Shown here piece by piece: positions 2,254-7,081 of a DNA stretch of 64,000 nucleotides. The position numbers were made by a program, and so were the translations under genes. Below the pieces are notes generated by a model. That model saw only the letters and a program-made list of their open reading frames with translations, made no database searches and was not told the DNA's origin. Every line of letters starts with the position of its first letter. The stretch's first letter is position 1. Location: positions 5,456,001 through 5,520,000 of the forward strand of contig NZ_CP107939.1 of NCBI RefSeq assembly GCF_036046055.1, written 5' to 3'. This stretch comes from Nocardia sp. NBC_00403 (GTDB lineage: Bacteria > Actinomycetota > Actinomycetes > Mycobacteriales > Mycobacteriaceae).

Positions 2254-2724
2254 TCAGAACGGCTTTGTCGGCAGGTACTTGCCATCCAGGGTGATGACGG
2301 CGCGCTCACCGCCCTCGGGGTCGGCGACTTTCTTCACATCGAGCTTGAAGTTGATCGCGCTGATGATGCCGTCCCCGAACTGCTCGTGGACCAGGGCCTT
2401 GAGGGTGGTGCCGTAGACCTGCAACATCTCGTAGAAGCGGTAGATCGTCGGATCGGTTGGGACCCCGCCGGGGATCGACCCGCGGGTCGGGATGGTCTGC
2501 AGCAGCATCGTCGCGTCGCCGCCCAGGCCGAGCAGGTCGGCGACCGCCGCGGCACTCTTCTCGGGCAGGGCGTGCTGGCCGAGAACAGCGGCGGTCACGA
2601 ACGCCACCGACAGGCCGGCGGCGTCCGCGAGCTCCTGCCAGGTGAGGTCCTTCCTCGTCTTGGCGTCCACCGCTGCGGCGGCCAGTGCCTGGCGGGCGGT
2701 GGGGTCGAACTGTGCGTGCACCAT
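2254..2724 (-). CDS. cynS: cyanate hydratase (cyanase)
   Basis: 156 residues, the usual family length. It converts cyanate plus bicarbonate into ammonia and CO2 as a cytosolic decamer. The catalytic residues of E. coli cyanase fall at identical numbers: Arg96 and Glu99 in YRFYEM and Ser122 in [10 protein letters not shown]. The C-terminus ends in the canonical GKYLPTKPF. The N-terminal part is the helix-turn-helix-like dimerisation domain. ATG at 2724 has AAAGGAA about 11 bases upstream and discards a long unsupported N-terminal extension. It lies 118 bases downstream of cynT, as in other cyn operons. Confidence 0.97.
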
Positions 2725-2842
2725 GATGCGTGGGTTCCTTTCGGGATCGAACGTCGGCCGGGCCGGTGGTCGGGAGGTATCGGCGCTGTGGGGAGGTCCC
2801 GGGTGGCATGCGCGGGGGACCCGAGATGGGTGATCTGGGAGA

Positions 2843-3445
2843 TCAGGCAGCGAGCACGCTGTCCGATCCGGCGGCGTCGATGACCGTGATCGCGCCGGTG
2901 CCGATGTCGAACACCCATCCCTCGACGGTCGCGGTGCCGGCGGCGACCGCGTGGGCAACCGAGGGGTGACTGGCCAGGTTGGCCAGCTGTGCGAGGACAT
3001 TCACACGCACGAGCGTCGGGACGGCGTCGCCGGCAGCGGCGCCGGTGGCCCGGGCGGCGGAGGCGGCCGCGTGACGCAGCCACTCGGCGATCATCGGTGT
3101 TGCGCTCAGGTCGTGGCGTTCCGCCAGCGCGGTCATCGCCCCGCAGCCGGAGTGGCCGCACACCACGATGCGGGAAACCCCCAACACGGCAACGGCGTAC
3201 TCGATGCTTGCCCCGACGCCGTCGGCTCCGGGTGGGCAGGCGGGGACGAGGTTTCCCGCGGTGCGGATCACGAACAACTCGCCCGGCTCGCTGTGGGTGA
3301 TCAACTCCGGGACCACGCGCGCGTCCGAGCAGCCGATGAACAGTGTCTCGGGACGGTGGGTGGTGGCGAGGCGGGCGAACAGCTCCGTCTTGGCGGGGAA
3401 GACATCGCGTTGAAAGTGCGTGACGCCGGCGGCGAGGTCGTGCAT
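2843..3445 (-). CDS. cynT: beta-class carbonic anhydrase of the cyanate operon
   Basis: 200 residues. The zinc site is seen as Cys39-x-Asp41-x-Arg43 (CSDAR) and His98-x-x-Cys101 (HSGCGAM), the same positions as E. coli CynT. It hydrates the CO2 formed by cyanase so that bicarbonate, a cyanase substrate, is not lost from the cell. It is the first gene of the leftward cynT-cynS unit, and its start codon is 69 bases from the shared GTATTGGACTCTAT operator. ATG at 3445 is preceded by a purine-rich GGGAGC stretch. The identification is firm from motifs plus gene order. Confidence 0.95.
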
Positions 3446-3511
3446 GGATCGCTCCCTTCAGGGCGCTTGGCCGGGTTGGACCTGACAAGATCCACCATGC
3501 ACAACCTGTCG

Positions 3512-3562
3512 CTATAGAGTCCAATACTTACTGTTCATAGCAATGATTGGTTGCATCTATAG
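3512..3562 (-). promoter_or_regulatory. CynR-type operator/promoter module for cynT-cynS (left copy)
   Basis: Read on the minus strand, this region has CTATAGATGC (3562-3553), 25 bases of spacer, then GTATTGGACTCTAT (3527-3514). The identical two boxes with identical spacing stand in front of the ankyrin/deaminase genes at 4480-4528. The ends also form a CTATAGA/TCTATAG inverted repeat (3512-3518 with 3556-3562), with inner CCAAT/ATTGG arms. The layout fits a LysR-type recognition site plus activation site next to a promoter, with TTGGAC as a possible -35 element. Binding by CynR is inferred. Confidence 0.65.
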
Positions 3563-3586
3563 TCGGTCTGGGGCGGGCCGATACCG

Positions 3587-4480
3587 CTAGGTCGACCGTG
3601 CGGCGGCCTGGGCGATCGCACTGAAGGCGCGGGCGGCCGCCGAATGGTAGGCGCTACTGCGACGCAGGAGTTCCACCGTCCGGGTGGGCAACGCGGGGGC
3701 TAGCGCGATGGGCAGTAGGTCGGGATGAGCACGCGTGATGGCGTCGGGCAGGACCGTGGCGAGCGATCCTCGCCGAACGAACTCGATCAGCGCGCCGATG
3801 GAGTTGGCTTCGACCCCGATGCTCGGCGCGATCTCGCAGTCATCGAAGTATTCGTCGATGTGAGACCGGGTCGCGAAGTCGCGACTGAGCAGCGCCAGTG
3901 GATGGTCCATGAGCTGCTGGACCGGCAGTGGCTCCGATCGCGCGGCGAGGGTGTGGGTCGATCCGACCACCAGGCTGAGATTCTCGGTGAACAGCCTGAC
4001 GTTCTCGATCCCGGCGGCGTGGGTGCCGGTGAAGGCGATGCCGAGATCGACGCGGTCGGCGAGCAGGTCCGCCTCGATCCGGTCCTGGGTGGTCTCCACG
4101 ACGGTGAGGGTTACGCCCGGGTGTGCGGCGTGGAACTGGTGCACCAGCGGGCCGATGAGGTAGGCGGTGATGGTCGGTGTCATCGCCACCCGCAGGTGCC
4201 CTCGGGAGAGGTCCTGCACGTCCTGTATCGCGCGCTCGCCGGCGTCGAGGTCGCGCAGCGCGAGACGCGCGTGATGCGCGTACGCCGCGCCGGCCTCGGT
4301 GAGGCGCACGGTGCGGCCGGACCGGTCGAGCAGCTGCACCCCCAGCGCTCGCTCGGCTTGCCTGACCTGCTGCGAGAGGGTGGGTTGAGACACGTGCAAC
4401 GCCTCGGCCGCGCGGGTGAAGTTGCCGTGATCGGCGACCGCCAACAGATACCGGATATGGCGCAGCTCCATGACCGCCAC
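3587..4480 (-). CDS. cynR: LysR-family regulator of the cyanate operon, CynR-like
   Basis: 297 residues with an N-terminal winged helix-turn-helix (about 1-60: MELRHIRYLLAVADHGNF, then LHVSQPTLSQQVRQAE) and a C-terminal periplasmic-binding-like effector domain. CynR in E. coli activates cynTS in response to cyanate. Here the gene lies directly upstream of cynT and is transcribed in the same direction, not divergently as in E. coli. An ATAGA-N5-TCTAT palindrome (4482-4496) begins 2 bases upstream of its start codon, which suggests autoregulation. The family call is certain; the CynR role comes from the neighbourhood and shared operators. Confidence 0.88.
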   Translation of the reverse strand: MAVMELRHIRYLLAVADHGNFTRAAEALHVSQPTLSQQVRQAERALGVQLLDRSGRTVRLTEAGAAYAHHARLALRDLDAGERAIQDVQDLSRGHLRVAMTPTITAYLIGPLVHQFHAAHPGVTLTVVETTQDRIEADLLADRVDLGIAFTGTHAAGIENVRLFTENLSLVVGSTHTLAARSEPLPVQQLMDHPLALLSRDFATRSHIDEYFDDCEIAPSIGVEANSIGALIEFVRRGSLATVLPDAITRAHPDLLPIALAPALPTRTVELLRRSSAYHSAAARAFSAIAQAAARST

Positions 4481-5369: not shown

Positions 5370-5831
5370 ATGATCAAGGGTGAGGAAGCCTATCTGCGGC
5401 GGGCGATCTCGCTCGCCGAGCACACAGGTCGCGAGGGCAACCACCCGTTTGGTGCCGTCATCGTGGCCGCCGACAGGGCCGCGATCGCCGAGGGCCGCAA
5501 CGAGGTGGCCAGTGCGGGCATCGTCACCGCCCACGCCGAGCTCGTCGCGATCACGGCCGGGCGCGCCGCGGAGCTTGCCGGGGCCACGATCTACGCCAGT
5601 GGTGAGCCCTGCCCGATGTGCGCCGCGGCCGTCGTCTGGGCCGGGATCGCCCGCGTTGTGTTCGGCGCCGCCGAGCCGGATTTCAGCGCGATCATCGGCG
5701 GGTACCCGCGATTTGGTCTGCGCTGCGCCGAGGTCATCGGGTCCAGCGACGCGGCAGTCACCGTCTGTGGCCCGAACCTGGGCGACGAGGCACTCGCGCC
5801 GTTCCTCCGTCACGCCGCGGCGAATCCATGA
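5370..5831 (+). CDS. nucleoside deaminase (CDA superfamily), second copy
   Basis: 153 residues with HAE at 55-57 and EPCPMC with cysteines at 81 and 84, the full zinc-deaminase signature. NHPFGAVIV and GATIYASGEPCPMC are typical of the guanine/tRNA-adenosine/cytosine deaminase group. ATG at 5370 follows AGAAGGAG by 5-6 bases. An upstream in-frame ATG at 5352 overlaps the ankyrin stop but lacks a ribosome site. It is probably translationally linked to the ankyrin lipoprotein gene and shares the cyn-type operator. With the deaminase at 1607-2107, two such enzymes flank the cyanate genes. Confidence 0.85.
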   Translation: MIKGEEAYLRRAISLAEHTGREGNHPFGAVIVAADRAAIAEGRNEVASAGIVTAHAELVAITAGRAAELAGATIYASGEPCPMCAAAVVWAGIARVVFGAAEPDFSAIIGGYPRFGLRCAEVIGSSDAAVTVCGPNLGDEALAPFLRHAAANP

Positions 5832-5985
5832 CGCCAACGCACAGCACCGTCCGGCAGGCTCTCGCCATACTCTTCGACCGAGCCGACCGGATCCCGATCG
5901 TACGATCGAGATGTTCGGATCCGGAATCTGCCTGCCGATTTGGTCAACCTCGGTAGAAGGTTCGGTCGCCGGGAGCCCGGGAAGC

Positions 5986-6408
5986 TCAACGGTGTGGATA
6001 AATTCGACGGCGGCCGGATCGACGGCCAGTGAGATCGCCCGCCTGTACGTTGCCCGCCTTCGCCTTTGCGGCACCGAGCTCCGGGGCGCGCGCTGACTTC
6101 ACGAACTTCAGACCGATCACGCTGGCGACGATACCGCCGAGGAACAGGACCTTCAGTGCGGAAACCGATTCCGCGCCGGTGAGCATCGCGTAGGTGATGG
6201 TGAGTGCGGCGCCGACGCCGATCCAGACCGCGTAGGCGACGCTGAGCGGAAGCTTGCGCAGCGCGATCGCGAGTCCGATCATGCTGAGCGCCAACCCGAT
6301 CAGGAAGACCACCGTCGGGACCTGTTCGGAAAGACCATGGGAGCTACCGAGCGCGGTCGCCCATACGGCCTCGAACACCGCACTGACGAGCAGAATGATC
6401 CACGGCAT
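5986..6408 (-). CDS. small multidrug resistance protein, SugE/Gdx-like (second of a pair)
   Basis: 140 residues with four transmembrane helices. The essential membrane-embedded glutamate is Glu13 and is followed by Trp16 (SAVFEAVWATALG), the pattern of the Gdx/SugE guanidinium-exporter branch. AYAVWIGVGAAL is the usual TM3 signature. A basic tail of about 35 residues follows TM4. It starts 1 base after the stop of the other SMR gene, so the two are translated together. Paired unequal SMR subunits often form obligate heterodimers. The guanidine-III riboswitch upstream argues for guanidinium as substrate. Confidence 0.88.
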   Translation of the reverse strand: MPWIILLVSAVFEAVWATALGSSHGLSEQVPTVVFLIGLALSMIGLAIALRKLPLSVAYAVWIGVGAALTITYAMLTGAESVSALKVLFLGGIVASVIGLKFVKSARAPELGAAKAKAGNVQAGDLTGRRSGRRRIYPHR

Positions 6409-6409
6409 G

Positions 6410-6724
6410 TCAGCTCACCGCCTTCAGGCCTGTGACGCAGCCGATCAGCCAGAGTAGTAAGAGGGTTCGCGCGGCAGTCGGTTTCTCTTTACCGCTGATA
6501 ATCGCCCAGAACGCTGTCAGTACAGCGCCGATACCCACCCAGACCGCATATGCGGTACCAGTCGGCAGGGTATTCATAGCAATGGCGAGTCCGATCATGC
6601 TGCCCACCAACGCAACCGCGAAAACAAAGGTGGCGCCGACGCGCCGGAAACCGTGGGACGCGGCTAGCGCGGTGGCCCACACCGCCTCCAGCACACCCGA
6701 CGCAATCAGAATTACCCAAGCCAT
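6410..6724 (-). CDS. small multidrug resistance protein, SugE/Gdx-like (first of a pair)
   Basis: 104 residues, four transmembrane helices, typical SMR length. Glu13 and Trp16 occur in SGVLEAVWATALA, and TAYAVWVGIGAVLTAF marks TM3. It is the promoter-proximal gene of the SMR pair. Its GGAGG ribosome site, about 10 bases before the ATG, lies in a GACC-ATGGA-GGTC hairpin next to a guanidine-III riboswitch. Together with the downstream gene it most likely forms a proton-coupled guanidinium exporter in the inner membrane. Confidence 0.9.
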   Translation of the reverse strand: MAWVILIASGVLEAVWATALAASHGFRRVGATFVFAVALVGSMIGLAIAMNTLPTGTAYAVWVGIGAVLTAFWAIISGKEKPTAARTLLLLWLIGCVTGLKAVS

Positions 6725-6730
6725 GACGAG

Positions 6731-6747
6731 CTGACCTCCATGGTCAG
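6731..6747 (-). promoter_or_regulatory. Shine-Dalgarno-sequestering hairpin of the guanidine riboswitch
   Basis: CTGACC-ATGGA-GGTCAG on the minus strand is a perfect 6-bp stem. Its left arm is the 3' strand of riboswitch helix P2, and its right arm overlaps the GGAGG ribosome site of the SMR gene. The two pairings are mutually exclusive. Guanidine binding that stabilises P2 would free the ribosome site, an ON switch acting on translation. The pairing is seen in the sequence; the switch mechanism is inferred. Confidence 0.6.
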
Positions 6748-6782
6748 TCTTGTCGCTGTCCGGGTACTGAACCCTCGTCCGG
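6742..6782 (-). promoter_or_regulatory. guanidine-III (ykkC-III) riboswitch
   Basis: Read on the minus strand, the 41 bases begin CCGGACGAGG, continue to GTACCCGG and then ACAAGAC. These are the invariant blocks of guanidine-III riboswitches, known from actinobacterial SMR genes. The CCGG blocks pair in P1. The loop arm GGTTCAGT pairs with ACTGACC with one bulge, keeping helix P2 while its bases differ from the Thermobifida fusca example I recall, which amounts to covariation. It precedes the SMR pair and ends 17 bases before the start codon of the first gene. Confidence 0.92.
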
Positions 6783-6937
6783 AGGCCCGATCAGGGCCTT
6801 GACAAGCAACGTAGCACGCGGGTCATTCCAGATTTCGAAGGTGTGAAGACTGCCTGTGGGCGGGGCGTATGGCGGATTCTTCGGGGAATTCCCACGAATC
6901 GAATACCGCATTGCAGGTTGGATATGACCGACCACAC

Positions 6938-7081
6938 GACAATGCGCCGCGTGTCTTCGATCGCTTCTATCGAGCCGCTGAATCACATTCCTGCACTGGC
7001 GGATCCGGATTCGGACTGGCCATTGTCGCCGCCGTAGTCGGCGCACACGGCGCCAGAATCCAGGGACCAACAGCCGACTGA
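6938..7081 (+). pseudogene. remnant of a sensor histidine kinase C-terminus
   Basis: The plus strand reads RVFDRFYRAAES, then GGSGFGLAIVAAVVGAHGA and a TGA at 7081. This matches the F and G2 boxes of a histidine kinase ATPase domain (xVFxRFYRxxxS and GxGLGLAIV). No H-box, N-box or start codon belongs to it, and the normal C-terminal 20-30 residues are missing. It is a fragment left by deletion in a patch of remnants between the riboswitch and the methanethiol oxidase gene. Confidence 0.6.

Follow-up and report, generated by a model that had tools for sequence, protein, structure and literature searches.

A guanidine-III riboswitch very probably switches on the translation of two genes for a heteromeric guanidinium exporter on the minus strand of the window, i.e., the whole stretch of 64,000 nt of Nocardia sp. 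NBC_00403 that was analyzed. At low guanidine, the leader segment GGTCAG would capture the 3′ strand of the aptamer helix P2 (CTGACC) and hold the ribosome site in a hairpin. We infer that guanidinium, bound on G6776, G6767, and C6777, would stabilize the pseudoknot and the triplex, whose third strand would be at approximately 6777–6772, that the ligand-bound aptamer would retain the P2 strand, and that GGAGG would in this way be freed. The two proteins, SMR1 and SMR2, lying in opposite membrane orientations, would then assemble as an antiparallel dimer that would exchange guanidinium for protons.

A translational switch is not a discovery here, because the mechanism is already in print for the class: passages of PMC5696562 and of PMC12186494 give as its model that guanidine stabilizes the fold, that competing structures are lost, and that the ribosome site is exposed. 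The locus is genuine and well formed, an ordinary representative of a riboswitch class already known, and its interest lies in detail, not in kind. Its leader lets the proposed ON/OFF switch be read base by base, and the present analysis adds comparative evidence, in that within the family of the window a P2 strand and its own leader fit better than swapped ones. Two genes that family models label only as small multidrug resistance or quaternary-ammonium transporters also receive a likely specific job, the export of guanidinium.

The Aptamer and Its Core

In a covariance model scan, the Rfam model RF01763 (Guanidine-III) matches positions 6803–6739 of the minus strand over its full length with 60 bits (E = 6.8e-10; gathering score, 36). 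This is the only Rfam match above cut-off in the 64-kb window. The original prediction, which had called a guanidine-III riboswitch and named such a scan as its check, is thus borne out well above threshold, and the three invariant blocks that it quoted are all found in the sequence. Its further claim, that P2 is kept with other bases, holds for the bases, which do differ, and less well for the pairing, which is imperfect: seven pairs are possible only with U6771 bulged, and Rfam flags one nonstandard pair. The span it gave, 6731–6782, comprises the pseudoknot core and the ribosome-site hairpin and omits an optional 5′ hairpin at 6798–6784 (Table 1).

The core is well conserved. Comparison with the Thermobifida fusca RNA shows that the three nucleotides contacting the ligand in the crystal structure are all present (C6777, G6776, and G6767). 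Across the 217 loci of the family sample (see below), P1 has standard pairs in 860 of 868 cells, with matched changes to GCGG/CCGC (12), TCGG/CCGA (6), and CTGG/CCAG (3). The riboswitch lies upstream of a Gdx-type SMR pair, in line with a class that precedes genes of guanidine export or metabolism. A scan of 5800–6950 for promoters of the sigma-70 type found none.

Table 1. Features of the riboswitch and of the exporter genes, in window coordinates
Feature	Coordinates	Strand	Basis
Optional 5′ hairpin GGCCC/GGGCC before the aptamer	6784..6798	−	Sequence; inside the Rfam match
P1 (pseudoknot) 5′ strand CCGG, partner 6763–6760	6779..6782	−	Sequence; Rfam match; covariation
P1 (pseudoknot) 3′ strand CCGG	6760..6763	−	Sequence; Rfam match; covariation
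C6777 and G6776, counterparts of C6 and G7, which contact the ligand in the T. fusca crystal structure	6776..6777	−	Position-by-position comparison
P2 5′ strand, U6771 bulged; G6767 equivalent to ligand-contacting G17	6766..6773	−	Rfam match; comparison with the crystallized RNA; folding
P2 3′ strand ACTGACC; CTGACC (6747–6742) doubles as 5′ arm of the competing hairpin	6742..6748	−	Sequence; Rfam match; folding
Competing (OFF) hairpin CTGACC-ATGGA-GGTCAG, including the ribosome site	6731..6747	−	Folding; strand–leader coevolution in the family
Shine-Dalgarno GGAGG of SMR gene 1	6735..6739	−	Sequence; opening energies
SMR gene 1, 104 aa, Gdx-type, charge bias +4	6410..6724	−	Pfam PF00893; Gdx-Clo 6wk5; residues
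SMR gene 2, 140 aa, Gdx-type, charge bias −12	5986..6408	−	Pfam PF00893; Gdx-Clo 6wk5; residues

The Competing Hairpin and the Ribosome Site

The competing hairpin consists of six perfect pairs between CTGACC and GGTCAG (6736–6731), closed by the loop ATGGA (6741–6737). Since CTGACC is common to P2 and to this hairpin, the two pairings are mutually exclusive. The start codon of SMR gene 1 is the ATG at 6724–6722, with a spacer of 10 nt from GGAGG. GGAGG has three bases in the loop of the hairpin and two in its stem, so that the blocking of the ribosome site may be partial.

The segment 6756–6722 folds at −14.5 kcal/mol (z = −3.0), and only 2 of 200 dinucleotide shuffles fold as well. Nearest-neighbor energies are −9.0 kcal/mol for the competing hairpin and −5.3 kcal/mol for P2, a figure that leaves aside the pseudoknot, the triplex, and the ligand; OFF would therefore be the resting state unless these three strengthen P2 enough. 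The predicted cost of opening the ribosome site is 7.4–7.5 kcal/mol as long as the 3′ strand of P2 is free and drops to 2.0–2.1 kcal/mol once that strand is removed. When the aptamer is held out of the folding, the ribosome site is still partly paired with other bases of the leader or of the coding sequence.

The alternative pairing of CTGACC with a GGTCAG that overlaps GGAGG had been proposed beforehand, and it is found exactly as described. The claim that the switch is readable directly from the sequence is supported by the pairing, by the opening energies, and by the coevolution in the family presented below; the exact form of the hairpin is not universal. The loop of the hairpin also contains an extra ATG (6741–6739, minus strand), from which a short reading frame, out of frame with SMR gene 1, runs over the start of that gene. 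This ATG is also present in the leaders of three other Nocardia loci (L172–L174), and no ribosome site is seen before it.

Coevolution of the P2 Strand and the Leader

We take the family of the window to be Mycobacteriaceae in the wide GTDB sense. The search covered 201 genomes of this family (138 with a match) and 150 genomes of Nocardia (86 with a match), the window's own genome being in both sets, and all listed matches were collected. This gave 220 loci, from which L195, L212, and L217 were left out as misfits to the motif search; the resulting 217 loci count one place twice (L050 and L159). The swap tests compared how every P2 strand folds with the leader it belongs to and with leaders taken from other clusters, over 20,000 permutations.

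In the family, strands and leaders clearly go together. With 27 clusters from 136 loci, the energy is −9.45 for own and −7.77 for swapped leaders (standard deviation 0.38; 0 of 20,000 permutations), and the expected number of strand–leader pairs is 7.0 for own and 6.3 for swapped leaders (25 of 20,000). A second test, in which the leader's own folding was subtracted, used 209 of the 217 loci, as six have no SMR stretch (L007, L026, L117, L118, L218, and L220) and two no start (L002 and L182). With 31 clusters it gave −7.46 for own and −5.95 for swapped leaders (standard deviation 0.35; 0 of 20,000), and other clusterings agree (0, 59, and 25 of 20,000 for 58, 14, and 6 clusters). The effect remains when the loci with the CTG type of P2 are removed (7 of 20,000 with 27 clusters and 8 of 20,000 with 13) and is also found in these loci alone (117 of 20,000 with nine clusters). 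Hence, there is good support within the family for coevolution of the P2 strand and the leader.

Two further tests had a different outcome. The occlusion of the ribosome site by the P2 strand, computed on the same 27 clusters, is 0.49 kcal/mol for own and 0.31 kcal/mol for swapped leaders and is not significant (3982 of 20,000); the gain is at least 2 kcal/mol in only 36 of the 136 loci, and the median is 3.5 when the strand is present and 3.2 when it is absent. In this test the P2 strand of the window ranks first of 27 on its own leader. Outside the family, 58 loci were available from a sample of 80 SMR loci (the best 80 of 118, with SMR gene 2 as the query), once the 13 from the window's family, eight in which no riboswitch was found, and one without a start were set aside. 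The energy swap test on these 58 loci is not significant with 9, 18, or 32 clusters (4137, 2753, and 741 of 20,000, respectively), and pooling family and outside loci gives 8 of 20,000 with 44 clusters.

The support for coevolution is thus limited to the family of the window, and its exact form, with the ribosome site in the stem or in the loop, varies. For example, four Nocardia loci with gene pairs (L165, L172, L173, and L174) have a strand–leader hairpin of eight pairs, which includes G-U pairs in three of the four. L140 keeps seven and L196 six pairs, U-A replacing C-G through changes on both sides, and 10 of the 16 other paired loci of the family sample have only four to five contiguous pairs.

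The SMR Proteins

SMR gene 2 begins one base past the stop of SMR gene 1, and both reading frames are intact. The closest solved structure of both proteins is Gdx-Clo (6wk5; E = 4e-18 for SMR1 and 3e-17 for SMR2), with the best EmrE chain far behind (E = 1.4e-5 and 4.7e-4, respectively). The Gdx-Clo residues E13, W16, S42, Y59, and W62, whose roles are described in passages of PMC7695847, are kept in both proteins of the window and in all 17 first and 17 second members of the gene pairs of the family. According to the same passages, Trp16 is conserved in Gdx and replaced by Gly or Ala in Qac.

The best NCBIfam model is NF008512 (SugE), with 77.9 and 71.4 bits for a cut-off of 126, and Qac, Ebr, and Mdt models are among the next. 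Presumably this SugE model takes in less than the whole Gdx subtype, and the failure to reach its cut-off was for this reason not counted as defining. The two adjacent genes have opposite Arg/Lys biases (+4 and −12), as paired SMR proteins that form heterodimers do. The assignment of the pair to guanidinium export, already made in the original prediction, is supported by the Gdx residues and by the nearest solved structure, and the two genes probably encode, judging from their sequences, a heteromeric guanidinium exporter.

Alternative Explanations

The aptamer might mainly protect the message, the ligand-bound form blocking the scanning of RNase E and the ribosome-site hairpin being secondary. 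Richards and Belasco (2021) reported such protection for this class, as cited in a passage of the review PMC12186494, and in the window a 5′ hairpin does precede the aptamer. Message protection does not account, however, for the way P2 strand and leader coevolve within the family, and we consider it doubtful as the main role; it is in any case compatible with release of the ribosome site. Less probable still is that the competing hairpin is not a switch but a by-product of base composition, the P2 strand being rich in C and the ribosome site in G. The occlusion test across the family and the energy test outside it, neither being significant, are what one could invoke for this. Yet leader swaps keep both compositions and still cost approximately 1.5 kcal/mol in the family, the hairpin segment of the window is better than nearly all of its shuffles, and the window ranks first among the clusters. 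A translational switch, with the reservations given on its form, thus remains our preferred reading.

As for the product, the SMR pair could export another substrate, such as quaternary ammonium compounds or polyamines, or it could be a relic. The NCBIfam results would allow the former, since SugE comes first but below cut-off and is followed by models of other substrate classes. Both proteins are nevertheless nearest to Gdx-Clo and far from EmrE, and both have Trp16, while the intact reading frames speak against a relic. Either possibility seems to us very remote, and guanidinium is retained as the putative substrate.

Paired and Single Exporters

Among the 217 riboswitch loci of the family, 194 are followed by one SMR stretch, 17 by two, and six by none. 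The 194 single loci include L002 (a remnant) and L182 (in which no matching start was found), as well as L034, L204, and L215, which end at a contig edge (after 363, 627, and 536 bases, respectively), so that a second gene may have escaped notice there. The charge bias is +4 to +6 in the first gene of the pairs, 0 to −12 in the second (negative in 16 of 17), and 0 to +2 in the single-gene proteins (192 aligned). This pattern agrees with the published signature, as given in passages of PMC9574504, that distinguishes dual-topology homodimers from fixed heterodimers. In a tree of 74 rows, which includes 39 of the 194 single-gene proteins, first and second pair members each form one clade (support 100/98 and 97/86). 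Separate origins of the two genes were considered and not retained: the best tree sets them apart, but a topology that unites them in one clade is not rejected either (p-AU = 0.465).

The pairs are also marked by the sub-type of P2. All 17 pairs of the family have the CTG type (C-U-G), directly after the GACAAGA block, and among the 18 CTG loci of the family only L113 is single-gene. Because the paired genes form one clade each, this association counts as one event and not as 17. The 80 SMR loci, in which pairs are over-represented because SMR gene 2 was the query, comprise 38 CTG pairs, 18 CGG (C-G-G) pairs, 14 CGG single genes, one CTG single gene, and nine loci without a riboswitch by motif search; 4 of the 38 CTG pairs are from Nocardia. 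Outside the family, 34 of the 52 riboswitch-bearing pairs are CTG and 18 are CGG. A strict link between CTG and pairs, complete in the family, is thus broken elsewhere and was rejected. CTG nearly always implies a pair, yet a pair needs no CTG, and shared descent accounts for much of the association.

A broader reading can be put forward as a conjecture that we hold to be rather unlikely. The platform of the family would be an anti-aptamer hairpin that is re-invented lineage by lineage and tracks P2, and the P2 sub-type with A-U beside the ligand core would accompany, in this family, the passage from dual-topology exporters encoded by one gene to fixed-topology exporters encoded by two. The riboswitch may have been adjusted to the composition of the exporter that it controls. 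The 217 family loci and the 80 SMR loci (71 with a readable riboswitch) form a natural series of single and paired exporters under one riboswitch class. This comparative set serves the question of how dual-topology transporters turn into heterodimers.

Other Riboswitch Loci and Neighboring Genes

The genome of the window has a second guanidine-III riboswitch (L002; C1:5894510–5894574, minus strand, 45 bits), which directly precedes a decayed C-terminal SMR remnant matching residues 80–130 of SMR gene 2 (E = 1.5e-7). Another Nocardia genome has a similar join of riboswitch and remnant (L220), with 33 bits, below cut-off, and a weak SMR match (E = 0.025). L002 and the weaker L220 suggest an old, decayed exporter locus.

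Four loci (L007, L026, L117, and L118) have the riboswitch before an arginase-family gene (PF00491) instead of an SMR gene, those of L117 and L118 being read as far as the retrieved sequence extends. The gene of L007 is nearest to the agmatinase models of NCBIfam, below their cut-offs. Given the riboswitch, and the guanidinases mentioned in a passage of the review PMC12186494, the product in such loci may be a guanidine hydrolase.

Within 2 kb of the exporter there is a cyanate gene set (2254–4480, minus strand) with a CynR-type LysR regulator (439 bits for a cut-off of 277), a carbonic anhydrase, and a cyanate lyase; cyanate would be a second small nitrogen toxicant handled this close to a guanidine exporter. 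A cytidine/adenosine deaminase-like gene (PF00383; 5352–5831, plus strand) converges on the SMR pair, and a gene of the 56-kDa selenium-binding-protein family (PF05694; 7199–8605, minus strand) shares the strand of the riboswitch and lies upstream of it.

Comparison with Known Systems

The titles and abstract openings of the papers found in a literature search did not reveal this locus or a test of strand–leader coevolution, and we do not claim that these are absent from print. The closest known riboswitch is that of T. fusca (PDB 5NWQ; Huang et al. 2017, PMC5696562). As described in passages of that work, it is an H-type pseudoknot with the same core blocks and with ligand nucleotides C6, G7, and G17, and is a proposed translational ON switch, all of which recur in the window. 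The affinity reported there for the class is roughly 60 µM. The differences, with respect to the same passages, are in P2 and beyond it. The window has A6768-U6746 beside the ligand core in place of C16-G37, and its P2 has a bulge, unlike that of T. fusca. Its ribosome site starts 2 nt past P2, inside the competing hairpin, whereas the 3′ end of the T. fusca riboswitch is 16 nt from the ribosome site.

The proteins resemble the paired, heterodimeric Gdx exporters of PMC9574504, passages of which put this type at ~20% of Gdx, in E13, W16, S42, Y59, and W62 and in the adjacent genes with opposite Arg/Lys bias. SMR gene 2 departs from these exporters by the long, strongly basic C-terminal tail of its 140-aa product, and its bias of −12 is the most extreme of the 17. 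The guanidine-III loci of the family that have a single gdx gene share with the window the class of the riboswitch and its position; the window differs from them in having a gene pair with opposite charge biases and a P2 of the CTG type.
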